Source of the DNA: Bryum argenteum
Lineage: Eukaryota > Streptophyta > Bryopsida > Bryales > Bryaceae
Assembly (NCBI GenBank): GCA_037043015.1
Contig: CM073325.1
Span: 436,501 to 500,500, forward strand
Length of the DNA: 64,000 nt
Reading direction: 5' to 3'
The first letter of the stretch is position 1. Every line of letters starts with the position of its first letter. Positions 36,931 to 64,000 of the stretch are shown here, piece after piece. Below the pieces are notes generated by a model. The model ran no database searches, had not been told where the DNA came from, and saw only the letters and a list, made by a program, of their open reading frames with translations. The translations under genes and the position numbers were made by a program.

Positions 36931-37790
36931 ACTACTAGGAATTAGAGGCATATGCTACAATAGAGGCGTAGCATTTTACTCTAGAACTAGGGTGTGGTGG
37001 TCCCTGTTGAAACGTAGCATGAACCACGGTGACGTCGTTGCCTTCAGTAAAGTTACGGGAGGGGGATAATATTAGTCACGTCGCAATGTGCATGGGAACG
37101 TCCGTTCTCAAACAAGTTCCCTTGCTTTATGTTGTCATATGGTGGCCACGTGGCAGTATATATGGCAGTAGTGATTTTCTTGAATTTCTAACTTGTAAGT
37201 ATGCTCTTCAAAATTACCATGCATGTTTTGGGGGAGGTAAATATAAAAAGAATTTACTATGACTTTTTTACCATGTGCTGTTTAGTTTTACCTTCCGTAC
37301 AATTGAATTCAATTTTCACCTTAACGATATTCGCGGTATTCTATTTTTGGAAGTCAGAACGTGCACCAACGTGTATGCCACGTAGCGTGTCGAGATTCGT
37401 TTTCAGAAAGCGTCCACTGCATACCGTATGGAGTATTCTCACTGGTCTAGTAATAGGATGGACGCTGTCATCTCAATTACCGCACAGAAGGGTATGCCAT
37501 TGATTAATTCCTAATTTTATCCAAGCAAGCGGAAATGGGTAATGCCTTAATTTGAATACGACAAGCACTGAAAAAGATATGCATTGACAAGCATACCACA
37601 GATTTGCGGTAGTAATTTTCACTCCTTCGTTCTGTAAAGAACCTTAAATCCGTATTCGAGTGAGTTCACTGTACAAGAATGTTTAAGAGTCGAGAACGTA
37701 TGTGAACAAGCGCCCAGATTGCTGAAAGTGCACTCCTATGTATGCTGGTCATGGTGTCGTCGATCCCTATGTACAGTAGCAAAAGTTAGT
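36931..37790. other. CACTA left subterminal region
   Basis: About 860 bp between the left terminus and the ORF1 stop. It contains repeated CGTAGC/GCTACG and CCACGTGGC/CCACGTAGC motifs (36951-37025, 37146-37390), as expected of subterminal transposase-binding repeats in CACTA elements. No coding support. Confidence 0.6.
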
Positions 37791-41278: not shown

Positions 41279-42487
41279 TGAGTCGTACTGGAGACCTGAA
41301 CGTTCTTCAAAACCTTCAATGTGTTGACAGCCTGTACGCTCGCACGCTAACAGGACATGTACGCCCGCACGCTAAGCGGATACCAAACCGAAACCCTACT
41401 AGCGACTTTAGAAAAACCTATGCGTGTGACGACACTACGAAACAAGGACTACAGAACGCAGCTTCAATAAGCTCAGTTAAGGAAGATAGCGGCATGCCTG
41501 ACGCTCGCAGCTTCAATTAAGCGGATACAATAACGACTACAAGGCGACCAAGAAGGATTATGCTGCAAGGCAGCGTCAGATCAAAGCACAAGGCGACCAA
41601 GAAGGATTGTGTTGCAAGGCAGCATCAGATCAAAGGAAAATGTGAGCAAGAAATGAAAGGACTGAGAGCTCTCAGAATCGGCTATGGCGTGCATTGACAA
41701 CTGAGTGCATACCCATCCCAGCTTGAGGGACGAGAGAGAAAGGTGAGAAGCCCTAGCCCGATATCTACCGACGCTGACCACTGGATGTAAATACGATGTA
41801 CATATTAAAAAGCGCGCGAGGATGTAACGAACCTCCGATATTGTCGTGTTTTTGAAAGTTCCGTTTCCCGCCTGTTATGTTCGCGTACATATCAAAAATC
41901 AACCTTATCGTAACGTTTTACCAGATTTAAAAATAAATAAATATGTAACTTGTATTTCCAACCCTATTTGTAGATACTAATGTGTAAAATTCTTTTAATC
42001 CTAGATCATCAGTGTGTTTGATAGATCTAATTTTTAAGAACATGTATTCAATCATGGTCATTTTTGAAATTGCAATTTCATAGATAATAAGTTCATAAAA
42101 TGTATCTATTGAAAATTGTGGAACATGTAGGATTAAAGATGTTTAGAATGGCACATTCATAGATCTTTTGAGTATTATAATTCTGGGTACCTATTACCAT
42201 AAATGGGAATGTAATAAACATATATATTCAATAGTACCTATCAAAGCACACCATTGTAACCTTTGTTCACTTAAGGCTGGAAAGATATATTTTGAATGGA
42301 ATTGCTATGTTATATTTTATGAAATTGCACAACTACATAATTTTGTGTTTATTACATAGACCATCATAGAAAAATATGAATATAAGTTGTAATTTGATAC
42401 AAATTAGAGTTTGAGAAAAAAAATACTCTACACTTATTTTGCTATGTGATTGACCATAGACTCTTTTGTGTATAGAATTCAGTGACC
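41279..42487. promoter_or_regulatory. Divergent intergenic region between ORF1 and TNP2
   Basis: The two transposon genes start back to back about 1.2 kb apart, so both promoters should lie here. The left third is GC-richer and contains short tandem duplications (see 41541-41638); the right part is AT-rich. No clear TATA assignment. Confidence 0.5.
41541..41638 (+). repeat. 49-bp tandem duplication
   Basis: 'aaggcgaccaagaaggatta...gatcaaag' at 41541 repeats at 41590 with a few substitutions. A smaller duplication, 'acgctcgcacgctaacagga' with 'acgcccgcacgctaagcgga', lies at about 41337-41380. Confidence 0.9.
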
Positions 42488-45400: not shown

Positions 45401-48364
45401 CCCACCCAGTATTCTTCAGTCACCATCTGCCAGTTACTACTTTAAAATCATCCCGTATGAGTGGGCAGGTATTAGGATAGTTCGTAGGTGGAGCCAATTT
45501 TAAGTATTCAAACTTACTGTAGTAGGTCGATAATGGTTTAAATAAATTCGAAATGCAAATGAGTAGAGTGGACTGTGGGCATTTCTTTTTTCTAGGATGA
45601 GTTTGGTTTGAAAAAGTTGTTGAGTTCTACATTTAACTTTATTTACCATGTGAAAAGGAATAATTCACATATCTTAAAATCTTATAGTATGACTAATTTT
45701 TTCAGAATTCGTTGTGATTGCACAGGGAAGAAGAAAGTCAAAGACATGAACACGTATTTACAGCCCATGATTAGTGAACTACGTACACTATGGCATACCG
45801 GGGTAGATGCCGTAGATGTGTCTGCACCACATGACAAACAACATTTCAATCTCAAGGGCATTTTACTTTGGACAATGCATGACTTTCCCGGGTATGGGGT
45901 ATGTTCCTCATTGCAAACTCAAGGGCACAATGCTTGCCCCCCTTGCGGACCCCACCAATTGGAGTCACACACTTCAAAAGCCTTAAAGAAGGTGATTTAC
46001 ATGGGGCATAGAAAATACCTACCCTATGGCCACAAGCTACGTCACCCACACCATAATAGAGCATATGGTAGTAAAAGGGCCGGAAAGCTTCCAGTGAGGA
46101 CAGAAGCAAAATTTTGGTCGAAAAGGTGGCAAATGGTGAAAGACAAGGAAATTTTGAAGAAAGACGCTGGAGTGAAGGCAAAGTCCATATTCTATAAACT
46201 GCCCTATTATGAGGTGTGGTTTCTTTTTACTTCTAATTTCTTTTTTCTTCTTTGAATTATAACTATAAATACAAAGTAAAAGTATACTAAAAATTCTAAT
46301 CCTAGTATCAATTTATTTTCAAAGAGCAATTTTACAATTCAAGATAAAATTTGTATGGATGATTTGTACTTTGAAAAGATTGTAAACTACTTTATCTTCT
46401 TATCTTTATAACATATTGTTATGGCAAATGCAGGACCTTCCCATTCCTCATCTATTGGATCCAATGCACATAGAGAAGAATGTGTGCGCGGCATTGTTCA
46501 AAACTTTTTCGAATTGCAAGGGTACTAAGGCGGATAGCCTTGGAGTGCGCAACGCCTTCAAAGAGAATGGAATGCGCCCGGATTTGCACGCACATGAGGA
46601 TGGACGAGACAACAAGGGGAATGTGAAGTTCAAATACGCCAAAGCCCCGTGGATTTGGACTTTGGAGGAATATGACATGGTCATAAATACCATCACATCT
46701 ACTCGAACTCCCACCGGGTATGGCTCATCTTTCTCCTCCAAATTTAGCGATAGGAAAATTGTGGGTATGAAGACTCACGATTACCATAATCTTTTACATG
46801 ATATTCTACCTATAGCTATAAGAGGTACCTTAACAAAGGAGATCCGTGACATAATCTATAGGTTAGGATCCCTTTTTAAATGGATTTGCTCTAAGGAGAT
46901 TAACAAGCTAGAAATAATGTTTAAAAAAGTTGAAGCAGCAGAGATCCTATGTTTAATGGAACTGCATTTGCCACCTTCAATTTTTGACATTCAAATTCAT
47001 TTGATAGTTCACCTTGTAGAAGAGGTAGAATTAGCGGGACCCGTCTCAGCCCGTTGGATGTATTTTTTAGAGATATACATGAAAACTCTAAAAGGGTTTG
47101 TGAGGCAAAAGGCACGACCCGAGGGCAGCATGGCGGAAGGTTACATAGTTTCAGAAACTATGTTCTATGTAACGGAATTTGTTCTACAACTTTACACCAA
47201 GGCACCCCGATTATGGGATTGGGAAGAGGGTGAGCGGTTCTCAGGAATAGTTTTGCCCAAGATGAGGTCAGAGCAAGTTCTAAAGCCAACCCTCAGAGAA
47301 CAAGTGCATAGGTTTATGTTGAAGAACTCCCCTGCTTTGGAGACATGGTGTGCGAGGTATATTCATTAATTGCCTTTTTTTTGTATATTATGAGTTGTGG
47401 TATTTTTTTTTTAACTTCTAAATTAAATTATTCCCCTTACATTAGAATTTTGTGTTGTTGCAATTGAAGGTATGCCACATTAAAAAACTTGGATCCCAAT
47501 TTACCAAGTTTTAGGGATTGGGCTTTAGGGGCGCTACAAGAGGCACAAAGAAAGGGTGAAATAATTTCACAAATGGCATTTGATATTGCCATAGGCCCAA
47601 GAGTAAAGGCAGATTTCTTTTCAGCTATGTGGGCGTATGGGCGTCATTTCCGCATTATGGAAAGGGACATGCACAAAAAAACTACATTTGATTGTGGCAT
47701 TTCCTCCATGTATGTTGAGGACGGAGAAGAAACGGAGTATCTTGGGTTCGTTGACAACATCATGCGAATTCACTTTGACTCTTTTGATACGGTCCTTATA
47801 AAAGGAAAATGGTATAATTCCATAATTGGCCGAGGGTCAGCTGGTACGCTTGTCACAGACGAGTGCGGAGTTGTAAGAGTTAAAGCTGGCCGTTTCATGT
47901 CTGAGTCCGCAATAACAGACGAACCAGTGGTTTTTCCCAAGGACGTCTCCCAAGTGTTTTTTGTTGAAGATAACCTGAATTGAGGGTGGAAGCTCGTTGT
48001 ACATGTTAACACGCGCTCTAGACGCGTCTTTTACAAGCGAGAGAGGGGTGATAACGGGGAATCCGATGATGACGAGAGTCAATATGCTTTCCCAGCACCA
48101 GACGCAACGAGCACAACGCGGCGCGGGGATACCCTAATTTCAGTAGAAGCCGACGATGCTGCAGGTGAGGACGATGTACAGAGCGTCGAGGGCGACGAAG
48201 AAGATAACGAGGAGGGGGTTCATATGGTGGACAACCTGGATTTGGATGACGAAGAGGAAGAGGCGCCACGGTCTTGGCACATAGGGATGAACCTCTCTGA
48301 TTTGGAGCCGAACGAAATGGAAGAGCTGGAAAGTGACGGGGAGTTCGAGGAGGAATCAACGTGA
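42488..48364 (+). pseudogene. CACTA TNP2 transposase with one internal TGA
   Basis: Exons 42488-42757, 44073-44666, 44784-45126, 45726-46213, 46434-47356 and 47470-48364; phases agree throughout, ~1,170 codons. Exon 1 has an N-terminal YCPCLKC segment like the transposase-associated domain. Exons 2-4 carry the Transposase_21 (TNP2) core: VIHACPCDKTLYFG, CPKCKLSRYG, RNVWLGLAMDGVNPY, TWPIMMVLYNLPPW, NTYLQPMISELRTLW, LLWTMHDFPGYG and MGHRKYLP. Exon 5 has LLDPMHIEKNVCAALFKT and a DUF4218-like stretch (HDYHNLLHDILPIAIRG). Exon 6 has a DUF4216-like region (ERDMHKKTTFDCGISSMYVE, LGFVDN) and an acidic tail. The TGA at 47981-47983 falls between VFFVEDNLN and GWKLVVHVN; homology-like sequence continues in the same frame, so it is a premature stop or is read through. 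Exon 1-2 linkage (1.3-kb intron) is the least certain part. Confidence 0.85.
43481..43699. mobile_element. MITE-like insertion in TNP2 intron 1
   Basis: About 219 bp with diverged inverted ends (left 'aataggtagattagtgttag'; right end the reverse complement of 'ctacacaaaatacctagttt'). The interior phrases 'gctataagttttta' and 'ctatgtaaggaccccca' are shared with a better-preserved element at 61820-62042. Confidence 0.6.
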
Positions 48365-48687
48365 GCACCCTATGCTCCGTAAGAGTAGCCGGCTGCGCGA
48401 CCAGCTGGAAAGACATGGTAAGTCGCAAAAGGAACTTTGTGCAACGGCTACCTCCGGTTTTTTTTTTTTTTTTTTGCTTTTAGGTTGTACCGTTCGTGGT
48501 CTAATCGGCAAGGCCTCGAGATAGCAGAAGATGAAGCCATGGGTGGGTTCAGATCGAGGACCGTCGCAGTTATTATTGTCCACTACAGAAACTGTCTGTC
48601 GTCACTTACAAGGCACTCAAACCACCGTCGTAGTCAATTGGGGGGTGAATAGCGTATTGGTTTTGTTTATTTCCCACTTTGCAGACA

Positions 48688-49029
48688 ATGAAGAAATTGA
48701 AGCTTTCGCAATCTCGTTTCGCTAAATGTAGATCCCTGCATGCTATCAGTTTGGAAGATTTTTCAGACTTGATTCCACAATTGCCAGTAGATGTGTTCGT
48801 GGGAAAAGTTTGGCCACTTTTGTTTGAACGCGGAGACAGGTTGAAACAATTAGAGACACTATTGAGTCTTCGACTTGTCTCCACAAGCTGGGCAGATTTT
48901 GTGGACGAATCGAAGGAGATGTTCGAACATCAGCTGCACCTCACACAATGCATGACACAAGTTCAATACAGATGTGCCCCTGGTCGATTCCGGACTTGGT
49001 CCAGGAAATACGAGCCAGGGCATTGTTAG
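48688..49029 (+). CDS. Uncharacterised ORF with F-box-like motif inside CACTA
   Basis: Open frame from ATG 48688 to TAG 49029 (113 aa), preceded by a good acceptor (tttcccactttgcag), so it may be an internal exon. The segment LIPQLPVDVFVGKVWPLLF, with LLSLRLVSTSWADFV ~20 residues later, resembles an F-box (LP.D....W...R.VS..W). It is unlike transposase and lies downstream of TNP2 within the element. It could be a captured host exon or a third element gene. Sequence further down (49390-49575, SEEDILQDLVTWYKKG) may be another exon, but I cannot join them. Confidence 0.35.
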   Translation: MKKLKLSQSRFAKCRSLHAISLEDFSDLIPQLPVDVFVGKVWPLLFERGDRLKQLETLLSLRLVSTSWADFVDESKEMFEHQLHLTQCMTQVQYRCAPGRFRTWSRKYEPGHC

Positions 49030-50944
49030 CACTAACTTATCAATATCTTCTTTGTGTTGTGCGGAGGAAGTTCCAGGGCCTTCTTGCTTTTAATCTTGCA
49101 GCATGCTTTAGTTTCCAGATGTTTTACATTGTCTTCTTTGTTGTGGGGATTTTGTAGGGTTTGGTTGAAGGCCTCCCGTTTTGCGTTATCTCAGGACTAA
49201 GCTATTTAGGTCCCAAATTTGATCTATCACATGGGAATGCATTTTAGGTTTTCTGCTGGTTCTAAAATAAGAGAATAAGGTCTGGTCCTTTTTTTAATAA
49301 AAAATTTGTGATATCATGCAGGCAACGCATTGATCGAGCTAGGCCTTTTCAGGCAATTCGATCGGTCTTCCTGTGATGGCTCACCCTTCAATTGTCGAGC
49401 AGACTACAGTCTTCTTCTACATTTCAACGACATACAACTCCATTCAACGGCAACGGCAGTAGATTAGGTGGAGTAGTGGATTTTTACATGTCGATGTCGG
49501 AGGAGGATATCTTGCAAGACCTGGTCACATGGTACAAGAAAGGTTCTTTGGCTGACCCTAAACCCCAGAAATATTAATAGTTTGATGGAGCTTCGTTTTT
49601 CCATTCTCAACCGCTGTTTGCTTTGGTTTTATGCAGTGAGGAAGAATCGATGGATACCTGCCATTCCTTTTTCCTTCCCCTCTCTCTTCATTAATAAAGA
49701 CGTAAGCTCCTTGTTGGTGTTTCTTGACTCATGTAGAATCATTCATGCGTTTCTTACTTTGCTTCTGAATCTTCGGGCTATGGCGTGCTTGGAGGGAAAG
49801 AAGTGCCTTGTAGAAACAGGAGATCGTATTTAAGATGAAGATGATGCTGATACTTCTATTGCTTGAGACTCATGCGATCGTTGGTAAGATAACCAATTAC
49901 ATGTTCTTCGATCTAATATTTCCTTCTTTATATTAGTAATGTGCTAAATACAACTCTGACCGATTCTTGATTTTCACATACAATGGTTCACCTTCTATGT
50001 TACGCAGGATCTCATCCCGCTGCTCAATGTGAGCTCCGTTGGCGACGTGAAGGCGATGACCAGCCGTATTGGCACCAACATTAGCAGCTCGTCAGAGGAC
50101 TGCCTCCAGTGGATTCAATCTTTCTAAAGTTCTCTTTTTTTTGCGAACATGAACTTGCTGAAGGCATGGTGGGCGTGGTAACAGATGTTGGGCACTGGAT
50201 TACGTTCGAAAGAGTGGGTCGGGACCGAAGCGCTTGCTCAAATGCTTACCACAGAACTGCCTTCTATTGATCATGTTCATTAGGAATCTGTAGTTTATAG
50301 GCATGTTAGCTTAGCGGGGAGATTTATGATGAAATCAGAGCTCCTAGGTGATTTCTGATGTTCCAGTTACCGCCCTGTTTTTCTATAATTAGCAATCTAT
50401 TGTTCGCGACTCCAATGGAGGCAATTTGTTTACCCATGCGAGGATATGAATCATACATTTTTACCCATGTGGAATATGAATTTCTAAGGTTAATAACTCT
50501 TTTACATCTGAAATTGTTTGAATTATTACATAGTCCTAAGTAAAACAAATTTCTGAATTTAACTAACCGCGAAATTGTTTGAGTTATTACTTAGTCCTAA
50601 GTAAAACAAATTTCTGAATTTTACTAACCCCCCACTGATGGTAAATTCGTCTTAAAATTAGAACCTCAAATATTTATTCACAGTTCAAGAGGGGGGGTGA
50701 ATTAAACTCGTGATATTAACTCGAGGTAATTTGAATATCAAAGTAACCAATCCTCAGCAACGTGACTCATTAAGGCTGTACGAACGAGATTGAATTAGGG
50801 GAACGGAAGTTGGGAACACCGGCCATAGTTAAAACGTGGCAGAAAACAGGCTACAGCAACAAATCTGGCTAAATCGCTCAAACGTGGTTTTTTTTTGCGC
50901 CGTAGCTTCTGTGCCGTAGTTTCCACTGGCAGATTCTAGTAGTG
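49030..50944. other. CACTA right portion and terminus
   Basis: No firm gene. Short open frames near 49392-49833 might be exons of the F-box-like ORF. The last ~100 bp holds CTACGGC-type subterminal motifs and ends TAGTAGTG. Confidence 0.5.
50510..50631 (+). repeat. 61-bp tandem duplication
   Basis: 'gaaattgtttgaattattac' at 50510 repeats at 50571 for about 61 bp with four or five substitutions, 315-435 bp from the right end of the transposon. Confidence 0.95.
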
Positions 50945-51575
50945 GTAGCGTCTTGAGGAATCCACACCACCCCCGACCCTGTGTCTCGTTCAAATGTGGC
51001 GAGCAAAGCGGTTTTTTCCCATGACTTCCCTCGGGTTTTATTCTTGCTAAGCTTTTGGATTGTGTGTTGCCACCAATCCATCTTGCGTTTAAACTGGTCC
51101 TCCTCTTGTGTTAGACGCCTCGTTCCAAATCGCTTCTTCCACAACTCCTTTACATTGAAGATGCATTGTTCAACTGTATTATCCATCCACAACGCGTACT
51201 GCGAATGATAATCCACATCTTGGTATTTATCGGTTTCCTCCATGGCCTTCAAAATTACGGCCGCCAATTTCTTCTTGATCTCTCTTTGCCCGTGCTAACA
51301 TTCCCGAGGTAGTTGTCTTTGAGGAATTGAGCCTCCGTTTCCTCATACCAATCCATGCATGCTTTTTCCGCAAACTTAGTATAATCTGTTGTTGGGAATC
51401 CGGGTCTTTCTTCTTTTGGGTGTCTCCTCTTCCTCTTATGGCCTCCACTTCCACTAGGTTGTTCCCCTCCAAGGTCTGGTGCAAATGTTTCGGGGGCATC
51501 CAGATCCCATGCTCGTTGTCCCTTCCCGTGCTTTTTGGATTTACTCATCGTTGAATTTCTTGAAAAAACCGGCAA
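50945..51575 (-). pseudogene. Atypical protein kinase gene, 5' part (right of CACTA)
   Basis: Minus strand. Starts at M 51575 or, more likely, M 51548 (MSKSKKHGKGQRAW). The N-terminus is basic and low-complexity (KRKRRHPKEE), then an unnamed region with AEKACMDWYEETEAQFLKDN. A single-base frameshift near 51296 moves the frame to KKKLAAVILKAMEETDKY, ALWMDNTVEQCIFNVKELWK, QFKRKMDWWQHTIQKL and GSGVVWIPQDA. The coding sequence reaches the target site GTA at 50945-50947. The codon interrupted there (AC|A) is completed at 36928-36926, leading into IEALSGRNMEGGHG. The last ~22 codons of the open frame to 50878 are transposon end, not host. Upstream lie a TATA box (51728-51735) and GC-dyad array 2. 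Confidence 0.75.
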
Positions 51576-51727
51576 AAAATCTCCCCCCTGCTATCAATGT
51601 GCACCAAACCCCAAAAACTCCTCAGACGACCCGGCAGTGCGCATCATTAAGACGAGCAAGGACACAGGGCGGAGGAGAATTCGGTAGCGGTTTGGGGAAA
51701 AGTAATATCAAACCCGCGCGTTGGGGT

Positions 51728-51735
51728 TTATATAT
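51728..51735 (-). promoter_or_regulatory. TATA box of kinase gene
   Basis: TATATAAA on the minus strand, directly at the left edge of GC-dyad array 2 and about 155-180 bp upstream of the candidate start codons. Confidence 0.6.
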
Positions 51736-51744
51736 CCTTGGAGA

Positions 51745-52100
51745 CGGGGGGTCGCCCTACAGTCGCCCACCGGCGGTCGCCCCAGTCCCGCTGTCGCGAC
51801 AACTGCAGACCGGCGGTCGCCCTACGTCCCGCATGATCGCGATATTGGACGGCGGTCGCCTGCGTCATTGCATTGCGCGAACAACAGACCGACGGTCGCC
51901 CTACGCCCATTGCCGCGAAACAACTAGACCGGCGGTCGCCCTACGCCCATTGCCGCGCGAACAACCGTGATCGGGCGCGTCGCTTCGCCTCCCATTGTCG
52001 CGATTAGCTGCACCGGCGTCGCGCTCACTGGACCGGGCGGTCGCCACGCAACGCGATACCTCTATCCGGACCGCCGTCCGCCTTGATTTCTCGGTCGCCC
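51745..52100. repeat. GC-dyad array 2, in a divergent promoter
   Basis: Repeated 'gaccggcggtcgcccta' and relatives (gaccgacggtcgccc, gaccgggcggtcgcc) interleaved with 'cattgccgcg' spacers. It occupies the whole interval between the minus-strand TATA (51728) and the plus-strand TATA (52105), i.e. between the kinase gene and the RING gene. Confidence 0.9.
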
Positions 52101-52104
52101 CGCG

Positions 52105-52112
52105 TATATATT
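52105..52112 (+). promoter_or_regulatory. TATA box of RING gene
   Basis: TATATATT directly at the right edge of GC-dyad array 2, 127 bp upstream of the ATG at 52239. A diverged copy of the conserved leader block follows at 52153-52196. Confidence 0.6.
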
Positions 52113-52238
52113 CCCCCATCGTACCTAAACTTGTTAGTTGGGTTTACTGGCCTAGCGCGTTGTCTTACATCCATTGAATTGGCTGCATGCTCGTGCGGGG
52201 TAGGTAATAACTATTTGCCATTTTTGGCTATTTCATCC

Positions 52239-54572
52239 ATGGCTACTCTCGGGCAACTTCGGAAGGAAGAGAACGACAAGAAGAGGAAGAGGAAGGCCGC
52301 TCCACAACGGAAAAGATTACACGTGCTTCTAAATCCAAATAAGCTTGCCTTCAGAGGTTGGGAAGATGAACCAGATATGTGGATGATGGCCACTTGCAAA
52401 TCGTTCATTGAATGGTGTCACATCGACAAGAAATTCCCTCTGTCTCGTCACCATTTTCATCGGCGTACCAACAAGGCAAATCTTAAGTTTTGCGAATGCC
52501 CAAACTTCAAGCAACGATGCATTGAGGTTTACCAAGTCCTGTATGGCATGCCATGTGTGGAGCGCAACGAGGTTCCATTGTTTCTTGCTCGTGGAGTATA
52601 CGCCGAGGTTGCTCTTGGTAAACGAGTGGATTGGACAACTGTCAAAGAGGGGAAGCATGTAACACGACCTTCAACGAGTGACATTCCGACAGGCATTCTA
52701 AGATTCCCTGACGCTCCTAATGGTGGCATGGCGGTGATGAGGTCTATTACCAAGGCTATGGAAGAGGCTGCCTATCATAGTGCTACATCGGAAGAGGACG
52801 ATGACTCGGATGGTTCGCGGCCTCGTAAGGCGGTGCGTCAAGTTCGACAACCTCTTCCTCCCACCAGCGTTGTGATTGATGCGGATCATCGTTGTAATTT
52901 ACCTGGCCGCGTTCCTGAAATAGGTGGCTCTCGCCCTCCAATAGCAAGTAATCATCCACCCGTAGTAGAGCCCCATGGTACTTGCATCTTACCATTGGAA
53001 GAACTTGACACATCTTCTGATCTCAAAGCTCTTCTGAAGAGTAAAGACGACGTGATAGCAAGATTGGAAGCGGATCTCGAAAAAACACGAGCAATGTATG
53101 AGGAGAAGGTGAAAGAAGGGGACCAGCTTTCCGTGGAATATGCACGCATGCGCGAGAAGATGCAAGAACTATCTCACGCACGTAACATTCGTGGAGATGT
53201 AGAGAAATCTGACATGGCGGATGTTGATAGAGTTGTCATGAACCTTACAGAGGACTTGGCATTTGGAGAAATGTCACCGCAACGCCCTACATTGCGCCGT
53301 CCTGTGAAAGCTCAGCCATGTGTTGTTAATATGTCGGGCCTCGAACGAGAAGAAGATGTACGATGTGATTCTCAAGATTCTTTATCTTTACCGCTGTTCC
53401 CCCCTATTCGTAATCCCCCTTTCATGTCGTCTGATGGATACAACTCCTTATTAAAGGAAAAGCAACAACTGCAAGCCCGTTTGGAGCAGTTGTCTGCCAC
53501 TTACTACCATTGGAAGGTGGCATGTATACTTTCGGTGGATAGAGGGAGACAAGTTGCAGCGGAGCTGGAGAAGATCGATAAGAATTTTACTAGTGGAGCT
53601 GGTCGGCGAACGTTTGGTATGACCTCGTGGCCGAGTGTGGATACATTGTTTGATAATCTTCCTATGATGGACATCAAGATGCAAGATGACACTTCTACAG
53701 AGGTTGTAGATTGGAGCAAGGCCGGGTGGAATTTCAAACACCACATGTCGGCACATGTTGATGTAGAATCCAGGACATTATTGTGGCCCAACCCTCCGCA
53801 GTTTGTATTGGATCACTCTACGTGTCCCATATGCCTAAATCCATTTGGACCTGAGGGTGGATGGGCTTTAGGCTCTTGTGTCCATATGTATCATCCGCAG
53901 TGTCTTTTAGTTCATTGTTTGACTCAAAGTCGTTGTGCTATATGCAAAGCGCCTTTTCACGAGCGGTTCTACGAGATGTTCAATCTAAGAACTTATATGC
54001 CGCCTTCTTGGGAACACAATGCTGAGACTACTGACGAGGTTCGATTCTGGGGTAAAGACCTTATTTGGAGTTGGCGTAGAGGTGAACATGATCTCGAGAA
54101 GAGTACTCCTAGCTCCCAATTGAATTGGGAGACTGACCCAAACGAGATTCTAAGAGTTGCTCCAATACTTGCCGGACACGGTCCACAGCATGAGGGTAAT
54201 CGGATGTTCTTCTTCCAATGCCTTGGAGGCTATTTTGATGTGAGCTCTAATACATTCAAGTGGGGGCCCCATCCAATGGGACATCGATGAAATCAATATG
54301 GGAAGAGAGTAACCGACGGTGAAGGTCGTGCCTCCATGGAAGATTTGGAAGAGTGTCAATATGCTGAGTCTACTTGGGGGCCACGATACCAGTCTCAAGC
54401 TCTAGACTATTTACTGGATGTACATAGTCCCCTCACAAGAAGGACTTTGCAGGACTTGAAAGACTCTAGAGTATTAGATCTGATCTTAAATGCAGATGGT
54501 CCATTCAATCGAACTCGTGCAAAGCGCAAACTTCTTGTTGGAGAATGCTCCAACCCTCAGCCTAGTGAATAA
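52239..54572 (+). CDS. F(R/P)GW-domain / RING-H2 protein with internal TGA
   Basis: Single-exon frame from ATG 52239 (basic start, KKRKRKAAPQRKR). Residues ~35-131 are the family domain: LAFRGWEDE, FIEWCHIDKKFP, HFHRRTNKANL, QRCIEVYQVLYG, VYAEVALGKRVDW. An acidic linker is followed by coiled coils at ~264-320 (IARLEADLEKTRAMYEEKV) and ~402-450. A RING-H2 begins at C529: CPIC-x14-C-x-H-x2-H-x2-C-x10-C-x2-C. Next comes a conserved-looking tail (YMPPSWEHNAETTDEVRFWGKDLIWSWR). The frame meets TGA at 54288-54290 (683 aa). Downstream, in the same frame, it stays open 93 more codons (MEDLEECQYAEST..TLQDLKDSRVLDL) to a stop at 54570-54572. A RING-H2 normally gives E3 ubiquitin-ligase activity; that and the domain's role are inferred. 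The TGA is either the true end, a nonsense mutation, or a readthrough site. Confidence 0.75.
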
Positions 54573-55006
54573 TAATTACGATATTGTGAATCCATACACT
54601 CCAGCATAGCGTATGGTTTTAGCTATATAGGACTATATTTCATCATAGTATTATCGAGTGGTAGCTTTTTGCGCAACAATGTATCTCATCTCCTATTGTA
54701 CTACTTTTTGCATCGATTAAATCAATGGTATGTATTTGGTTCGCTCCTTTGCTTGTGGTCTATTGATTGTACTTTGTCAGCTTTTATTGTATCTTACATC
54801 TTCATAGTCCATATAACCCGCCCAACCCCTTGTACCAATGCACAAACACGTACTTACGCATGATGAAAGGTAAAAACAAACTTCCATATATAAAGAGTAT
54901 GCAAAAAAGTACATAGAAGAAATTACGTACACTTTCCCTACACCTAAATAACGTAAATCAAATATCGTTTGGTGAATGTTGGGGTTGTAAGTCCATCGCC
55001 TCTACG
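54573..55006. other. Convergent 3' intergenic region
   Basis: Separates the stops of the RING gene (+) and the coiled-coil family member (-). AT-rich, no coding support. Confidence 0.55.
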
Positions 55007-56332
55007 TTAAGAATCTTCAACTTTTTCCTTGCCCTTTGAAAAAAGTGATCGTTGCGGTTCCAAATCAACGTCGATTGCGTTTATGTTGATGTCATCTTTT
55101 GCATTACTTTTACGATGAGCCCACTCTGCCCATGCGTCCTCAAATCGAGCATTCTCCTCAGCTACACGTAGTTGCTTTGCGAGTTTTACATTCTGGTCTT
55201 CACTCCATTTCACCAGCCTCTTTAATTTGTCAACTTCCTCTGGAGTCTTGCCATACTTACCCGCTAATGCCAAATCCCGAATGCGTAGCATCTCTTTATC
55301 TACCTCTAGAGCAATAGATTCTTCAATATCCGTCAACTGATCCCTCCACTCAGCTAGGACCCCTTCCAGGTAATTATGTTTAGTTGTCCAGAACTCTACG
55401 TAGTCTTCTATGGAAAGGCTGTTTGAATTTTTCTTCTCGAAAAACTTCTCCTTAGCCTCTTTTCGTAGCACAAGCATGGTCTCCATGTCAGCTATGATGT
55501 CTAGAGCTTTTTCGAAAACCTCCCGACCTTCTTCTTGTACATCGTATGGTGTAGAAAGGGCTCTTTCTTTGAGGGCTTCCAATTCCTTTCTATTCTGCAG
55601 TACTAAATCCAATTCCATGCCTTTTCCTATACTTAAATTGTGCAAAATGATCAAAGTATCCATGGCTTTGGATAATCTTCCACCCACTTTTCAGAATGGA
55701 TTTACCTCAAAGGATATTCCTTCAATCCAATGCATTGGAGGACCAGTTGGTTCATCGAGCTCGTATTCGTGTGTGTGTTCATCCTCCGAGGATTCAAAGA
55801 AGACCTGCTTTGTGTAAAATTCTGCGTCGGCCTTAGGACTCATATGTACCGTTCCAATTCCATCTCCTTCAATAGTCTTTGATGTCTCTCCAACCTCTAT
55901 TGGTTCGGTCTTCTCTTGTATAGGCAAACGTGGATGCGTCCACCAATGCACGTTCTTCCCGAGAATCATTTCCGCATATGCCATTTGTGCCAAAAAGTAG
56001 GGAACCTCATATTTAAAAATATGGTTGTTACCGTATATCATATGCCAAGCATAGATGCATCTCGCTTTGAAATCGTAATGATGGCACTCTCGGAGGTTAG
56101 CTTCATTCTTGTGCCGATGAATATTGTGCCAATGTAGAGGAAAGAGCTTGTTGATGTGGCACCACTCCACATATTTCTCACATATGGCAAAAGACCACGG
56201 CCCCCTCTCTTCCTCCCATCCTCTAAACGCTACTAACTTTGGATTCTTCAAGATATCTCTGCGCTTCTTCGCAATTCGACCTCGCTCATGGAGCACCATG
56301 GATGTGCCCGCTACAACGGGTAGTGCCTCCAT
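55007..56332 (-). CDS. F(R/P)GW-domain coiled-coil protein with internal TGA
   Basis: Minus strand; start chosen at M 56332 (MEALPVV..., parallel to the RING paralogue), though the frame is open to 56431. Family domain at the N-terminus: LVAFRGWEEE, YVEWCHINKLFP, NIHRHKNEANL, ARCIYAWHMIYG, AQMAYAEMILGKNVHW. Then an acidic linker (FESSEDEHTHEYELDEP). A TGA lies at 55691-55693 after EVNPF; the same frame continues KVGGRLSKAMDTL into ~220 residues of predicted coiled coil (LQNRKELEALKERAL, EEVDKLKRLVKWSEDQNVKLAKQL) and a stop at 55007. No RING. Either one gene with a nonsense mutation or readthrough, or a short protein with a decayed tail. Function unknown. Confidence 0.65.
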
Positions 56333-56367
56333 AAGAAAAATTCGTAGAAATACGCAAAGTCTCTCTA

Positions 56368-56415
56368 CGAGCAAGCAAGCAGCAACTCTGAAGTCGATAC
56401 TAGTCAATGCGCGAA
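56368..56415 (-). promoter_or_regulatory. Conserved leader block upstream of family gene
   Basis: On the minus strand reads 'tttcgcgcattgactagtat', then 'cgacttcagagttgctgcttgcttgctcg'. It matches blocks at 58352-58398 and 63134-63179, and weakly 52153-52196, at equivalent positions between array and ATG. Confidence 0.7.
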
Positions 56416-56479
56416 AAGGAGGAACTCGCAAAGTGTGAAAATGGACTGCCCGTCGCGTTCTTAAGCACAGTGATAAGGC

Positions 56480-56795
56480 GACCGGCGGTCTACAAAATGT
56501 GCACCGCCCGGCCGCTCACGGTCCAAATTATCGCCCTATCTCTGCACGCCCCGATCGCCCCGGCGATCGACGTTAAGCCCATGAGCGACCAACGTTCGCC
56601 CATCGTGTATACTCGCCGGGTCGCCTTGTGCCCGACGTTTCGCTCATTGGTTGGACCGCCCGATCGCCCGGCGACCGACGTTCGCCCATGAGTTGGACCC
56701 GGCGAGTCGCCCTAGCGACCGACGTTAAGCCCAAAGCCGGACCGCCCGATCGCCCTAGCGACCGACGTTCGCCCATGAGCTGAATCGGCGGTCGC
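56480..56795. repeat. GC-dyad array 3
   Basis: Units 'gcgaccgacgttcgcccatga', 'accgcccgatcgcccta' and 'gaccggcggtc' in an AT-rich background, 150-460 bp upstream of the minus-strand family gene (ATG 56332). Confidence 0.9.
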
Positions 56796-58104
56796 CCTAT
56801 TTCACCTCTTTATGTTGAATGCGAGGGCATCAGGTTTCATAGCAGCTCCTACGAGGATGAGAATCATGAGATGAGGATGAATATTGGATGGGGGAGGAAT
56901 AAAAGAGCCCTTTAGTTTATAATGTATTAATTTAAAAATTAGGAATGTATGCATAGGGTAGGAATTTCGAATCGTGGGTCCCATAATTCCCATTTTATGA
57001 TCATTCAATTCCTAAGAAATGGACAAGAGATGTGTAAATGGATAATAATGTATGGGAGGAAGGATGGGGTGAGAGTTTTTCGTCCTCTTTGTAGGCATGA
57101 ATGGTATATATTATTTTGTATGGTGTATATTTTAAGAAGTCATATCGTGCCTAATCAATTATAATAATTGATAAAATGTGAAATCATTTATAGAGCATCA
57201 GCCTCTTCAATGCATGAAAACACTTTAATGAATCTAACGATTCAATACCTACAATCTAAGAATGTAATCCAAGGTAGTCAATTCCTAGCATCTAAATTAG
57301 ATACCATTTCTGTACCAAAACTGCACCTCATATTTTAACATCACATTCAAGAACAATTTCTAGTTTCTTTTTATATCAGTGGAGCCTTTAATATATTATA
57401 AGATCTCCGTATATAATATCCGACTAATAGATTATCCTTGCAATGAGTTTATGGGCTCATAACATTATGAAATTGGTTAAATTGAGTGGGGGGAGGAATT
57501 TGAAAATTTTGGCAAGTCAAATAATAAGGCCTTGAAATACAATTAAGTGAATGGAATTAGTGCATATACCCTAGAAAGCACTAAGAGAAATAGTTGCTTA
57601 CCAAATTAAAAGGTGATATATCATGATATATTATATGTTTGGAGAAAAAATGAGTGACCAGTATATAAAGGTAAATATTTGAAGTGAAGAAGACTAATGA
57701 TTTGCGGACATTCTTATCAACCCATTACTGAGCGTACTTTTGGAACCAATATTTGATGAGTATTTTATGTTGAGAATTCTGAGAATGTTGAAAATTATAA
57801 TTTTGTAAATTGTGATTAAACTTGTATCGATCTAAATCCATATTACACCACAAGAGTACCCAATGAGAATAAAATCATTTTTCATGTATCATGGTCACCG
57901 CTCTTGGCAAAATGCCCATGACCATGAGAATCATTTCAATTGGGAATGAGAAGTGAGTGGGAATGAGAGGAAATGAGGGGGGATGAGGGGGGATGAGGGG
58001 GATTGAAGGGGGGAATGGGGGAGATGCTTGAATCGGTTAATTCAAAATTTGAATATTGCATAAAGAGGATCCAAGAAAAAGAGCGGGAGCTCTCGCGAAG
58101 TCGC
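56796..58104. other. Intergenic, no gene seen
   Basis: AT-rich. A GGGGATGAG short tandem repeat lies at about 57975-58010. No supported coding sequence. Confidence 0.55.
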
Positions 58105-58285
58105 CCCTGCAGAGTGCCGGTCGCCCGGCGCTCTCCGAGGGCCGGATTGAAACTCTTCTCAGCCGCACCGCGGTCCCCGGAGGTCTGCTGCAGCTGGACC
58201 GGCGGTCGCCCTGGAGCGAGTCTTGCAAGAAACACTGGACCGGCGGTCGCCCTAACGATGTCGCCGGGACACCGCCGGTCGCCCT
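58105..58285. repeat. GC-dyad array 4
   Basis: Contains 'ctggaccggcggtcgccctg' twice plus variants 'gtgccggtcgcccgg' and 'ccgccggtcgccctg'. Lies 200-380 bp upstream of the decayed family member at 58486. Confidence 0.85.
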
Positions 58286-58338
58286 GCCACAGGAGGTTAA
58301 ATACAATCGTAATTGGCCGTAGTCGTCACTTTTCGACC

Positions 58339-58398
58339 CACGTGCGTGGAATTGCGCATTGTCCGTGTGTCGACTCAAAGTTGCCACTTGCTTGCTCG
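58339..58398 (+). promoter_or_regulatory. G-box and conserved leader block
   Basis: CACGTG at 58339-58344, followed by 'ttgcgcattgtccgtgtgtc' and on to 'ttgccacttgcttgctcg'. The same order (CACGTG, then block) is found at 63121-63179. Confidence 0.7.
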
Positions 58399-58485
58399 AT
58401 TGGAGGCCAACGTGGACTGCACTATTTTTGGTGTTTTGTATCTAACATCACATCATAGCGGCATTTCCGTGATCGGAGGTAACAA

Positions 58486-59962
58486 TGACTACAATTGCAG
58501 AACGTAAAATAGTACTTGGGGAGCGACACAAGAAGAGAGGAAAAACACGAAGAGGAATCACCGTATTCTCCAAGATGCCACTCAACGCGCTTTTCCGGGT
58601 GGGAGACCGAAGAGGGTGTGTGGAGTCGACACAACAATGAAGAATTACATCGCCTGGTGCCACATCGCCAGTTGTTTCCACACTTTCGACATGAGACGCA
58701 CTTGAAATTAAATGCCGCAACTGCACTATTGTAAGCATGACGAATTCGTGCAACGATGTATTGAAGTGTGGAGGTTCCTTTATAAAGGCAAGAATGTCAC
58801 CAAGAACGAGGTTTCGTATCATATTGCTCAAATGGTGTATGCAGAGGTAATATTGGAGAAAGTGGTGGATTGGAGCTCAATGAAAAAATCGCCTCAATTC
58901 TTCCTTCCAACGAAGCAAGATATTCCAAGAGCCCCATTGACAAAAAAACCCACGAGAAGGACTTACGGCAAGAGGCATCGAAAAGATGGGGATGTCGATG
59001 ATGTGTATGTTTGGGTAAATCCTAATTCGATGAAGAAGAGGTTAAGGAGAGTGAGCATCATACTCCTCTTGTAGAAGGTTCTATTGGTGGCGTTGAACAC
59101 TTTCATGTGGGTGAAACAAGCGTGCAAGATTTGGATGTGATTGATGCACTGTGAAGCACATCGAGGACCTACGAATGAAGGAGAAGCGGATGGCATTGAA
59201 TACATGGAGGTTGAAGCAATGTTTGGTGCTTGTACTTTGGGAACACCCGGTTATAGTTCGCCCCGCTATGAGCGCCTCTCCTCAAACAAATGTTAGCGTA
59301 GAGGATGGGACTCTAGAATATCCAATGGAAACGATTGAACAACCCGAAGAGAAGGAAATGAAGAAGTAGAGTCGAGAAGGAAGTTCAAGTAGTCTTCAAA
59401 GCGAAACGCCCGAATGAAAACGATGATTCGTGGATGAAGTTGTTGAACAAGGCTTATGAGGATTATGAATATTTGTTTCATGCTTTGTCATACGAACGGG
59501 CAAAGTGTGTTGAACTCCAACATGACATAGAGGTATTCAAGGATGCAAAAAAGAAGATCCAAGAGGAGGCGACGAATGTTCTCCCTCTGGTTGCATCGGA
59601 TCGTCGATTATGAGGAAGAGCTCATAAAGAAGACGAAACATTTCGAGGATGTGCATAGGAGATACAAGCGCGTCGACGAATGGTTTGTAGTCAATGATTG
59701 GGGTCGCGAGAAGGATTTTATGGTTGAAGGAGCCAAGGACCAAGGTCATTTTGAGAAGGAGCTAAAGGAACTCATTTCGGCATGCGATGCCTTGAGAGCT
59801 GAGATCGAAAGGGTGAACCTAGCATCAATAAGATTGAAGGGGAACAAGGAAAAGTTAGTCCTCAATAGAATAGATGGAACCGTGTATATTGCGAGAAGAG
59901 GGTCAAAGTTCACAAAAATGAAACAACCGAGGAGTTGGTCAAAAAGCTACTTGTGCTCATGA
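58486..59962 (+). pseudogene. Decayed F(R/P)GW-family gene
   Basis: Starts ATG 58486 (MTTIAERKIVLGERHKKRGK, parallel to the 63-kb paralogue's MTPSQERKIARDKDRKRKRK). Domain pieces occur in different frames: FSGWETEE; YIAWCHIA; LHYCKHDEFVQRCIEVWRFLY, VSYHIAQMVYAEVILEKVVDW; so at least three frameshifts. A fragment in another frame (GGVEHFHVGETSVQD) parallels the 3' end of the 63-kb copy. A coiled-coil tail follows at 59543-59962 (YEEELIKKTKHFEDVHRRYKR). It is the closest relative of the 63-kb gene. A tandem segmental duplication about 4.9 kb apart is likely, since promoter block and array are shared too. Confidence 0.75.
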
Positions 59963-60754
59963 GAAGAGGAGAGGTTCTTAAATGCAAGGATCGAAGATCT
60001 ATGTATTGCAAATAAGACAAAGGAGAAATGTCGGAGCTGGTACCATCTAAAAAAAATCTAAAGTACAATGGAAGAAGATTAGAGTAAGCGGAATCAAATT
60101 TTAGAAAGACGTTGGTGTGTTGGTTATATCCATTTACTTTATTTTATTTGTGAACTGAAAGTTGGGAGATAAGTGCTAGGCTGGATGTTATACAATGTAT
60201 CTTTTTGATTATATGATATGTTTTTACTAGTAAGATACCCGTTGAACGATGTTATGTTTATTATTTGTATGTATGCGCACGGTGTTATTTTAATCATCTT
60301 GTTTATTCTTTTTATTTTTTTATTTTTTATTTGAAATGCATGATTTGGAAATATCTAAAAAAAGGTTCTTAGAATGGTATGTAGGTTGGTAATTATTTAA
60401 GTTGGTATGTTTGTATGTTGGTAGGTTGGTGGATACTTTGGACAGTGGTCTTTTAGAAAATTATGTCGTGTATACCATTCCATATGTATATATAATGATA
60501 TTGAATTTTGGAAAGCTTTGATTAGTATTAATCCACGATGAAGTAATGATAAATAATTTGTAAAAATTTGGAATCGTAACTAAGTTGTTGAAGTTACGTA
60601 TAAATATATGGTGGGATTTAGTTGCAAGTATTTAGAGTCAATGAATATTTTTACAAACCCCCCAAAACCTCGAAAGGCAATGATTCGTACATGATTTCAA
60701 ATATGCAGAAAAAGATTTGTAGCAAAAGGGGGGAAGGATATTCGCGCCATCACG
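59963..60754. other. Intergenic, no gene seen
   Basis: AT-rich, with a GTAGGTTGGT tract at about 60375-60432 like that at 10662-10760. No coding support. Confidence 0.5.
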
Positions 60755-61025
60755 TGACCGCCGGTCGCCCTAGCGACCGACGTTAAATATCACCGATCGG
60801 CGGTCGCCCTAGCGACCGACGTTCGCCAAGAACCGACGTTCGCCCATCGCCTAGATCGGGCGGTCGCCCAAAGAGAGGGTGCGCGAGGCTCGCGGACACT
60901 TTCTCCTTGGTGCTTGCCCATCACGTAGACCGCCGGTCGCCCTGTCAGCGTCGTTCGCCCATCAGGTGGATCGGCGGTCGCCCTAGCGACCGACGTTCGT
61001 CCATGCGCTGTATTGGCGGTCGCGC
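60755..61025. repeat. GC-dyad array 5 (orphan)
   Basis: Units 'gaccgccggtcgccctagcg', 'accgacgttcgccca' and 'gatcggcggtcgccct', interrupted by ~50 bp of unrelated sequence near 60875-60925. A CACGTG lies at its left edge. No family gene follows on either side within 1.7 kb, so the downstream gene may have been lost. Confidence 0.85.
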
Positions 61026-61819
61026 AATTTGGAGGTTTTGAATGAAGTTAACACCAAGTATCCTATAGACCTATACCATGCCAAGGTTGAATCAAATTAA
61101 CACCAAGTATTTCCTTCCACGTAAATCCAAGTTCCATGTGGCTTCTTTCATGATTTAATATATTTAATACGGTTAGAGAAAATAATAAAACCACCTCCTC
61201 CCCCCTTTAGTATAACTTCCTCTATTACTTAGCATCCTACAAAGTCAAAGTAAATCATAACATGTAGATACGTTTCTTTTACGGGAAATTTTGTTCTTCC
61301 ATAATTTTTATAAGGTCTTTTTTAGTCAACACAAGTTTTAAAATCGCTATCTCTTTCCACAAATCTATTTTCCGTATATCATTCAATATTCTACTCATTC
61401 AAATGACTTACAAGTAAATGATGACCTATAGATGACATATCCCCACGATTTTCTAAATAACACCATCATTTTCATAGGGTCATCATTAGGTAGTGTAAGG
61501 GTTTAAATTATCCTCTTACCCCCTTTATCTATTTTTTCTTATTTTTTGAAGTTTTGGTGTTTCTAAGTGCTTGCAACCAAAATCCACCCTATAGATCCTT
61601 TACTCCAACGATTTTTTTTTATAGCTCCATCATGTTCATAAGGTAGTTATTACATAGTCCAATTCTTTTTAAAATATTTTTTCTCTCCATTTAACTATTT
61701 TTTATCTTTTATTTAAAGCTCTACTTACTTCGAAAATTCTATATTAATTTGGGAAAAATAGTACAGGTTGTCCTATAATATTTTTGATGGTTCCATCATT
61801 TTTATATGATCCATATTAC

Positions 61820-62042
61820 CTACACTAAATAGGTAGATTAGTGTTAGATACACTAATATACATAAATAGGCTATAAGTTTTTACTATTAGTCAATATTTG
61901 TACCCTCTACAAAGGTGAAGATGGGGATCCTTACATAGTATTGGAATCGATACTCTTGGTAAAATTTTTATCCCAAAAGTAAAAACTTGTAGCATTTTCA
62001 AATCTTATAAAAATCTAACACTAATGTACTTATTTAGTGTAG
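61820..62042. mobile_element. 223-bp MITE-like element
   Basis: Left end 'ctacactaaataggtagatt' and right end the reverse complement of 'ctacactaaataagtacatt'. The inverted similarity runs ~60 bp inward with small indels. Non-coding. A related copy is at 43481-43699 inside the TNP2 intron. Confidence 0.8.
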
Positions 62043-62555
62043 TCCAAATGTTCAAATTACATTCCCCACTTTGTTTTCGTATGCATGTGCGCACACCGCC
62101 TACTTTCACATGACTATTTAATTTTTGGAAATTCGGGAAAAATACTTTCATTCCTGCTGTGCCCCTAAGATTTATATTATATTTTTCACTCAATATGAAT
62201 CACCTAGGAAAGTTTCCAACACCCCTTCTACTCCCTTTTTACTTATATATTTACATATTCCCCGTTCTTGACCCCCGCATTCAAATATCCCCATATAAAC
62301 TCAACCACTTAGTTCGCATTCTCCCATGGTTTTATGAATTCTTCCATTACATTTATGAGGCCCTTATTACCTAATTCAAGTGTTTGTATCACCTCCTGTA
62401 TGCTTTCATCCTCTTTTCCCTTATCATTCAAAGTTGTGGTGGGTGCACCTAAAATATGACATATGGATGCGATTTCCCTATGGTTTTTTTATGATTCTAT
62501 CATTTTCATAGGGTCATTATTAGGAAGTCCAAGTATTAAAATCACATTATTGCCC

Positions 62556-62558
<3 letters not shown>

Positions 62559-62624
<66 letters not shown>
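62559..62624. repeat. (AT)n microsatellite
   Basis: Uninterrupted AT dinucleotide run of about 66 bp. Confidence 0.98.
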
Positions 62625-62627
<3 letters not shown>

Positions 62628-62757
62628 TTTATTTTTATTTTTTTGTTTTTAGTTTTGATGGTTCCAAATACTTGCCACCAAAAGTCATTATATACATTCG
62701 TTACTACTTTGAAAATTCGACACACACACGCGGGAGGAAGGTTAGTACTTCCTCACG

Positions 62758-63062
62758 AGGTGGACCGGCGATCGCCCGGTGACCTACGGTCGCCCACCAC
62801 CGAATCGGCGGTCGCGCAATCCAGTCGGTCGCGCCCCACGCATCGTCCGCGCCCTCCCATTTGGAGGTCGCGCCCTCGACCGATGGTCGCGACACCAGTG
62901 GACCGGCGGTCGCCAATCCGCCGGATCGGCGGTCGCCCCAGCGACCGACGTTCGCCCATCGGGTGGATCGGCGGTCGCCCTGGCGACCGACGTTCGCCCA
63001 TCGGGTGGATCGGCGGTCGCTCGCGACGATCGACACTCGCCACCGGATCGGCGGTCGCCCTA
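62758..63062. repeat. GC-dyad array 6
   Basis: Regular alternation of 'gatcggcggtcgccc' and 'gcgaccgacgttcgcccatc' with ~20-bp units, most regular at 62918-63020. It ends about 290 bp before ATG 63350, and a CATATA sequence at 63075-63080 follows. Confidence 0.92.
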
Positions 63063-63120
63063 GAACCAGGGTTACATATACGCCGCTGACACCGACACCG
63101 CCATCGCCATTTTTCACCTC

Positions 63121-63179
63121 CACGTGTCGGGCCTTGCGCATTGTCTGGTGTCGACCTCTGGTTGCCGCCTGCTTGTTCG
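63121..63179 (+). promoter_or_regulatory. G-box and conserved leader block
   Basis: CACGTG at 63121-63126, then 'ttgcgcattgtctggtgtcg' and on to 'gttgccgcctgcttgttcg' at 63134-63179, matching 58339-58398 and the minus-strand block at 56368-56415. Confidence 0.7.
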
Positions 63180-63349
63180 AGCGCTAGAGCGTGCGGTGAT
63201 TGGCACACACGTGCCACACGGGTGCATTTTACACATACATGCTGCCCGATTTTCGAGTTTTCTAAATTCTGTGTTAGTCCACGGAATAGATATAACTTTG
63301 TTTGGAGTTAGTTTAAAAATTTTCTTCCTTGGTTAGCATTTGGGTCACC

Positions 63350-64000
63350 ATGACGCCTAGCCAGGAGCGGAAGATAGCGAGAGACAAGGACCGCAAGAGG
63401 AAAAGAAAGAAGCAAAGGAGATTTCACAAGATTCTCATAGATCCCACGCAACAGGCTTTTCCGGGGTGGGCGCAAGTAGAGGAACCGTGGACCCTTAAGA
63501 CTTGCAAGTGGTACATTGCTTGGTGCCACATCGGCCATTTGTTTCCACACTATCGTCACGAGTTTCATCGCCGCCTGAATTGCGCAAATTTGCACTATTG
63601 CCATCACGATGAATTTGTGCAACGATGCATTGAAGTGTGGAAGTTCCTCTACGCCGGTGTGCATGTGGTGAGCAACGAGGTTTCGTACAACATAGCACAA
63701 ATGGTGTACGCGGAGGTAATTTTGCAGAGGGACGTGGATTGGAGGACGTTTAAAAAATCCCCTCAAACAATTAAGCCAACAGAACCCCATATTCCGCGAG
63801 CTCCTTATCCAGCGGCCAACCCACGAGAAGGGCTTACAACACCTAGGGGTAACAAAGGAGGAATCCCTGATGAGGACATAGTTTGGTCGGATTCGGAAGA
63901 AGAAGGGACCGAAAGCCGAGAAGTGGATGAAGGGGAGCCGAACTAAACGATGGAGGAAGGTCAGGCACATTTTGATGAAGGGGGGCCAAGCCAAGTTTGT
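63350..64000 (+). CDS. F(R/P)GW-domain protein, runs off window
   Basis: Start ATG 63350 (MTPSQERKIARDKDRKRKRK), with a strongly basic first 35 residues. The family domain is complete: QAFPGWAQVEEPW, TCKWYIAWCHIGHLFP, HEFHRRLNCANL, EFVQRCIEVWKFLYAG, AQMVYAEVILQRDVDW. A Pro-rich then acidic linker follows (SDSEEEGTESREVDEGE). A TAA at 63944-63946 ends the frame at 198 aa, but the same frame stays open to the window edge (MEEGQAHFDEGGPSQV), resembling the decayed paralogue's EHFHVGETSVQD segment. The stop may therefore be premature and a coiled-coil tail may lie beyond the edge. Function unknown. Confidence 0.7.

Follow-up and report, generated by a model that had tools for sequence, protein, structure and literature searches.

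A 64,000-nucleotide stretch of the Bryum argenteum genome (GenBank assembly GCA_037043015.1, contig CM073325.1, forward-strand positions 436,501 to 500,500; hereafter the window, numbered from its first base) was analysed to describe its GC-rich arrays and four genes encoding proteins with a shared F(R/P)GW domain. Arrays and genes alike belong to a single multi-copy hAT transposon, whose copy in the window spans 33.9 kb, from 35068 past the window end to 69012 (window numbering, locus L033). The left part of the element (35068–36929, plus strand) is preceded by the left copy of an 8-bp target duplication, GGTTTAGG (35060–35067), the right copy of which lies beyond the window. It opens with the terminal inverted repeat CAGGGTTGTCTTGCTAGACAC and shares its borders with the copies on contigs C8, C9 and C7. 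This part carries a left subterminal array (35264–35579, plus) with a main step of about 21 bp, and the C-terminal part of a kinase gene (35965–36929, minus, start taken from the C9 copy; Pfam Pkinase, 1.5e-07 in the window and 2.3e-11 in the C9 copy). The kinase gene is cut by a nested CACTA element of 14.0 kb (36930–50944), which does not belong to the hAT element, has CACTACTAG ends and is flanked by a GTA duplication. An open reading frame with a DUF4218 domain was found inside this CACTA element, at 46386–47369. The right part of the hAT element occupies the remainder of the window (50945–64000, plus) and begins with the N-terminal part of the kinase gene (50948–51560, minus; approximate borders, drawn from open frames in the window and in the C9 copy).

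Further to the right, an array (51745–52100, plus) is situated between the kinase gene and the divergent gene A (52239–54290, plus), which encodes an F(R/P)GW domain and a C-terminal RING-like finger (Pfam zf-RING_2, 4.5e-05, below the cut-off) and whose frame stops earlier in the window than in the C9 copy. Gene B (55007–56332, minus; F(R/P)GW domain at 55937–56236) has a frame broken near 55690, downstream of the domain, and is preceded by the array at 56477–56800 (plus). The array at 58105–58285 (plus) precedes gene C (58485–60100, plus, end approximate), an F(R/P)GW gene whose frames are broken and which in the window copy is interrupted inside the domain itself. It is followed by an array without an obvious gene (60753–61030, plus), kept at the matching place in 4/4 copies, and by the array at 62758–63062 (plus) before gene D, an F(R/P)GW gene whose first open frame covers 63350–63946 (plus).

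A preliminary description of the window had placed arrays 145–290 bp upstream of the ATG of the four F(R/P)GW genes. The arrays were found at all four places, and the distance to the nearest ATG was 139–288 bp: from the array end at 52100 to the ATG at 52239 for gene A (plus), from the array start at 56477 to 56332 for gene B (minus), from 58285 to 58485 for gene C (plus), and from 63062 to 63350 for gene D (plus). The arrays at 35264–35579 and 60753–61030, neither of which precedes an F(R/P)GW gene, had been overlooked. Regarding the TATA-like sequence said to follow at least two of the arrays, inspection by eye revealed a clear one behind the gene A array (52105–52112), weaker ones behind the arrays of genes C and D, and none behind that of gene B. 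A hairpin-forming leader, one of the roles suggested at that stage, is unlikely wherever such a box comes after the array, since transcription would then start downstream of the array. A methylation-controlled switch, suggested beside it, is possible.

The motif GACCGNCGNTCGCC had 26 matches in the window, every one within the arrays, compared to a mean of 0.0 in 50 first-order Markov shuffles of the window and a maximum of 0 in 200 shuffles of the joined array sequence. From 130 sites collected in the window and C9 copies with up to two mismatches, the unit is rendered best as GACCG-N-CG-N-TCGCC; its twelve fixed positions are 76–98% uniform, partly by construction, and its two free positions 46% and 64%. 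The core, GACCGGCGGTC, is palindromic about one central base at 10 of 11 positions and includes CGGCGG. The orientation of the units is independent of gene strand. They lie mostly on the plus strand along the element, including the array before gene B, a minus-strand gene, and are reversed only at the transposase array. A coding repeat was ruled out, since the distance between neighbouring sites varies from 11 to 142 bp. At two places on contig C1 (C1:1081708-1081889 and C1:3388161-3388279), nine and six exact motifs, respectively, follow one another in strict 21-bp steps, corresponding to about two helical turns.

The classification of the element was obtained by searching the genome (258.8 Mb, 25 contigs) and comparing the window with the 40-kb surroundings of four other places, three of which showed sharp common borders. 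Both borders common to the window, C8, C9 and C7 copies carry CAGGGTTGTCTT, and the terminal inverted repeats, CAGGGTTGTCTTGCTAGACAC and CAGGGTTGTCTTATTAGACAC, begin with CAGGG, the consensus start of hAT terminal inverted repeats. A perfect 8-bp target duplication (8/8 bases identical) flanked 4/4 copies seen to both ends, namely those of the window, C8, C9 and C7. In the C9 copy, the DUF659 domain was recognised at 2.4e-34, and the hAT dimerisation domain (Dimer_Tnp_hAT) scored 23.2 bits, against a cut-off of 21.4, in the adjacent open frame. The termini, the 8-bp duplications and these two transposase domains together identify the element as a hAT transposon. Its length is 22.6 kb in C8, 19.8 kb in C9 and 19.9 kb in C7; the longer span of the window copy is due to the nested CACTA element. 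For comparison, hAT elements are usually seen as single-gene transposons. At the fourth place, on C5 at about 18.1 Mb (L040–L042, 18.12–18.15 Mb), two incompletely seen copies in opposite orientation were found within about 30 kb. The terminus had 697 genome matches with up to two mismatches and its reversed control had 0. In the protein searches, the best 150 candidates were scored out of 1139 for gene D, 738 for the transposase, 1266 for the second family described below and 670 for gene A. Among the best 150 gene D domain matches, the top ones were 96–100% identical and distributed over eleven contigs, and many had a gene C-like match about 5 kb off. The copies compared in detail beyond the window were picks among the best gene D protein matches.

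A scan for islands by GC and CpG content gave exactly eight per copy, and the eight arrays occur at matching places in 4/4 copies: two are subterminal, one at either end, a third precedes the transposase, a fourth separates the divergent kinase and RING-type (gene A) genes, genes B, C and D have one each upstream, and the last has no gene. In the C9 copy, the order is the left end, an array, the kinase gene (minus), an array, gene A (plus), and gene B (minus) with its array to the right, followed by an array with gene C, the geneless array, an array with gene D, an array with the transposase, an array, and the right end. The preliminary statement that arrays stand upstream of every family member thus applies to all four window genes and describes part of the pattern, given that arrays also precede genes outside the F(R/P)GW family (the transposase, beyond the window, and the kinase, divergent from gene A across a common promoter region), lie near both ends and occur once without a gene. 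The fixed promoter layout is inherited by copying of the element. The array before gene D was present in 29/30 fetched copies.

The genome-wide distribution of the motif follows that of the element. For GACCGGCGGTCGCC, 1232 exact genome matches were obtained, compared to 0 for the reversed control. The first 100 matches listed were all on contig C1, between 0 and 4.55 Mb, and 92 of them were located within 20 kb of a match to gene C/D, the transposase or the terminus, versus 18.4% of random points in the same stretch; the marker sets behind these figures are incomplete, being composed of the best-scored proteins and the first 100 termini listed, with 24 termini used for the count of 92. When gene A matches were added as markers, the number linked rose to 95, which rules out a free satellite and bears out the earlier proposal that the arrays are tied to gene starts. 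Two small genome-wide samples gave a similar picture: 17/18 matches to the motif followed by AA lay within 20 kb of an element marker (2.6% of random points), as did 7/9 matches to the motif followed by G (2.9%), with 4/9 lying within 5 kb. Additionally, 3/3 inward-facing terminus pairs less than 10 kb apart (C1, 0–4.55 Mb) retain exact motifs 213–335 bp inside both ends. These pairs are presumably short derivatives, each pair forming one element, and the motifs would then have been kept as expected of sites required in cis for transposition.

Part of another hAT element adjoins the C9 copy, with a transposase 53% identical to that of the first family (C9:8389003). This element bears two F(R/P)GW-like genes (E 2.2e-46, itself a profile row, and 1.4e-14) and four GC-rich arrays composed of other units, for example CGACCGGCCGTCGG; one stands upstream of the transposase and close to the presumed end, two precede the F(R/P)GW-like genes, one apiece, and the fourth is elsewhere. 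Of the borders of this family, one presumed end was seen. The 150 scored transposase matches were split by identity into 108 of the first family (at least 74%) and 42 of the second type (52–55%). A second-family F(R/P)GW gene was found within 12 kb of 15/42 second-type transposases (11 of them at 5.1–5.5 kb), and a first-family gene near 1/42; conversely, 79/108 first-family transposases had a gene C/D match within 12 kb and 5/108 a second-family gene. A 14-mer of the second family had 241 exact genome matches (control, 2). Among the 100 listed, all on C1, 80 were within 10 kb of a second-family marker, versus 6.0% of random points, and 11 within 10 kb of a first-family marker, versus 7.4%. 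The presumed second-family terminus, beginning CAGGGATGTCACAG, gave 213 matches with up to two mismatches (control, 0), and 32 of the 100 listed 14-mer sites were located 156–404 bp from one of the 31 such termini listed on C1. None of the first 100 listed matches to the first-family motif lay within 20 kb of a second-family marker. Each hAT family has its own array unit, because each motif tracks the markers of its own family.

Several observations accompany the main set. Contig C1, 44.1 of the 258.8 Mb, carries 108/150 scored gene C/D matches, 82/108 first-family transposase matches and 99/150 second-family F(R/P)GW matches; as a guess, it might be a sex chromosome or one with little recombination. 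For the RING-type part of gene A, relatives were found at 39–42% identity; one of them (C10:15918144-15918779) is about 4.4 kb from a second-type transposase match (C10:15922589), hinting at a further family. Outside the hAT element, an open reading frame at 18748–19599 of the window encodes GH17 and X8 domains and resembles plant-type glucanases. ACCCTAA repeats also occur in the genome and, like the GH17–X8 gene, are in keeping with a land plant.

When six copy pairs were pooled, the copies differed at 6.9% of core positions, 9.3% of spacer positions and 2.6% of positions in the rest of the element, with core sites defined in either copy of a pair, a definition under which the contrast is weaker than with sites defined in one copy. 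The ratios of nonsynonymous to synonymous change (dN/dS), which are crude in that they come from simple counting with decayed copies included, were 0.30 for gene A (five copies), 0.43 for the kinase (four copies) and 0.49 for the transposase (five copies), values consistent with constraint on these three genes. Gene B, with 1.83 in the domain and 0.91 in the rest, and the gene C tail, with 0.80, showed little constraint. For gene D, dN was zero in five copies and the ratio was 0.59 in 29 copies (one dropped for a stop); these values are biased by the choice of copies and were not used as evidence.

We consider it likely that a protein encoded by the element binds the shared arrays, thereby linking recognition of the ends with control of the genes in a transposon of about 20 kb. 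The arrays would serve as multi-site binding platforms: those at the ends for recognition of the transposon by the transposase complex, and those before genes for the same factor to switch on, or keep on, the genes of the element together, probably through CpG-rich promoters kept free of silencing. The presence of arrays before genes would call for such a regulatory role. A pair of DNA-binding domains would occupy the dyad GACCG-N-CGGTC, and the dimeric factor suggested in the preliminary description fits this dyad and may prove right as a prediction. Transposases of the hAT superfamily are held to have BED fingers. According to PMC10368747, two BED fingers of Hermes bind a quasi-palindrome of its subterminal repeats. 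As reported in PMC8097297, hAT-derived proteins often favour CGG or CGC words, CGGBP1 favours CGGCGG, and the motifs of four hAT proteins are matched within the subterminal regions of their own elements. By analogy, these preferences would suit both the dyad and the end arrays. The likeliest binder, a tentative choice given slightly less than an even chance, would be the N-terminal finger of the hAT transposase, where, in the first family, a C-x2-C...H-x4-H pattern was noted by eye only. An F(R/P)GW protein acting like VANC of Arabidopsis would come next, as a possible but less probable candidate.

Several results weigh against this interpretation. No BED finger was matched by Pfam, at E values up to 10, in the N-terminus of the transposase of either family. 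One of the eight arrays (60753–61030) has no gene, the gene D copy at L026 lacks its array (one weak site, compared to 6–16 in the other 29), and 5/100 motif matches (C1 2181077, 2185489, 2864156, 2864198 and 3801055) were unlinked to any marker. The observed/expected CpG ratio of 1.04–1.54 in 16 arrays of two copies, versus 0.73–0.92 in five genes and 0.50 in one AT-rich spacer, is owed partly to the motif itself. Finally, constraint on the array sites is weakly supported, because copies diverge at core positions almost as much as in the spacers, and more than over the remaining element.

The same data were considered under other explanations. Anti-silencing of the VANC kind could by itself account for the arrays, with the F(R/P)GW proteins rather than the transposase binding them and lifting silencing throughout the element, and with the end arrays as a mere part of the platform. 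This explanation, which we regard as possible rather than probable, gains from the presence of F(R/P)GW genes in both hAT families, each with its own unit, and from arrays that evolve faster than the remainder of the element; it is weakened by the little constraint on gene B and the gene C tail and by the domain itself. The F(R/P)GW domain of genes B and D had no Pfam match, including to a VANC-type accessory protein. The search of PDB sequences gave a single match at E 0.14, and Foldseek gave two matches at E values up to 10 and none at 0.001, with a query model of poor quality (mean pLDDT 60.4) built from a three-sequence alignment. DNA binding by this domain is therefore not suggested by homology. 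A search of viral contigs confirmed no relative.

Alternatively, slippage or duplication of one subterminal repeat may have spread passive copies, of which the end arrays alone would matter, leaving the gene arrays roleless. The arrays do change about three times faster than the rest, one of them has no gene, and the regions upstream of genes C and D look related by eye beyond the array itself; the eight arrays at matching places in 4/4 copies and the repetition of the same principle with another unit in the second family nevertheless make this explanation improbable. Hardly tenable is a host promoter class, as first proposed, through which a plant transcription factor governs a host gene family: all four family members in the window are indeed preceded by arrays, but the termini and target duplications rule this class out for these loci, and together with the transposase and the near-identical copies scattered over eleven contigs they indicate that genes and arrays move together as a transposon, with arrays also at its ends and before genes of other kinds. 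What looks like a host gene family under one promoter class can thus be a set of transposon genes, and through the arrays a mobile element may control itself. Binding of the arrays by an element-encoded protein, if true, would mean that a hAT element can comprise several genes over 20 kb and use one shared binding code to coordinate these genes with its transposition.

When comparing to known systems, the TNPA protein of En/Spm offers a case in which one element-encoded protein binds subterminal repeats and regulates the promoter of the element; En/Spm belongs to the CACTA superfamily, whereas the moss hAT element has eight arrays, including those at several internal promoters. The maize Ac/Ds system is reportedly a hAT element with subterminal repeats. 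Hermes (PMC10368747) resembles the moss element in its hAT type with subterminal repeats, corresponding here to the CAGGG terminal inverted repeat, the 8-bp duplications, the transposase with DUF659 and hAT dimerisation domains, and the short repeats near both ends. In contrast to Hermes and Ac/Ds, the moss element is about 20 kb long, carries a kinase gene, a RING-type gene and four F(R/P)GW paralogues, and has its end repeat before genes as well. The CGGBP proteins (PMC8097297) are hAT-derived, and proteins of this origin often prefer CGG/CGC, four hAT proteins having motifs that match their own subterminal regions; they and their hAT elements have been described from fish, insects, a fungus and amniotes. 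In the open-licence PMC literature on hAT accessory genes, anti-silencing, subterminal repeats and moss genomes, covered by titles and the starts of abstracts, no such element was found; GACCGGCGGTCGCC was not found in open-licence PMC literature, nor was the word hAT in the passages covered of a 2026 review on gene capture by plant elements (PMC13317346).

A parallel in organization is provided by the VANDAL elements of Arabidopsis and their VANC proteins. According to PMC5735166 and PMC10398659, these have motif clusters in the non-coding parts of a DNA transposon, accessory genes, motifs that differ between related families, and arrays that change fast. VANDAL elements are Mutator-like, in contrast to the hAT transposase of the moss element, and the F(R/P)GW proteins have no Pfam match; moreover, VANC binding and hypomethylation were measured in Arabidopsis, and in the moss element they are predictions from sequence. 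It is conceivable, and on balance doubtful, that a lineage of giant multi-gene hAT elements evolved sequence-specific self-activation or anti-silencing independently of VANDAL/VANC, with F(R/P)GW proteins recognising family-specific GC-dyad arrays upstream of the genes and close to the termini, and co-diverging with them between sister families of a single genome. If so, the co-evolution of protein–DNA specificity and escape from silencing could be tested in a system other than VANDAL of Arabidopsis, by means of two sister families that share a genome and differ in their codes.

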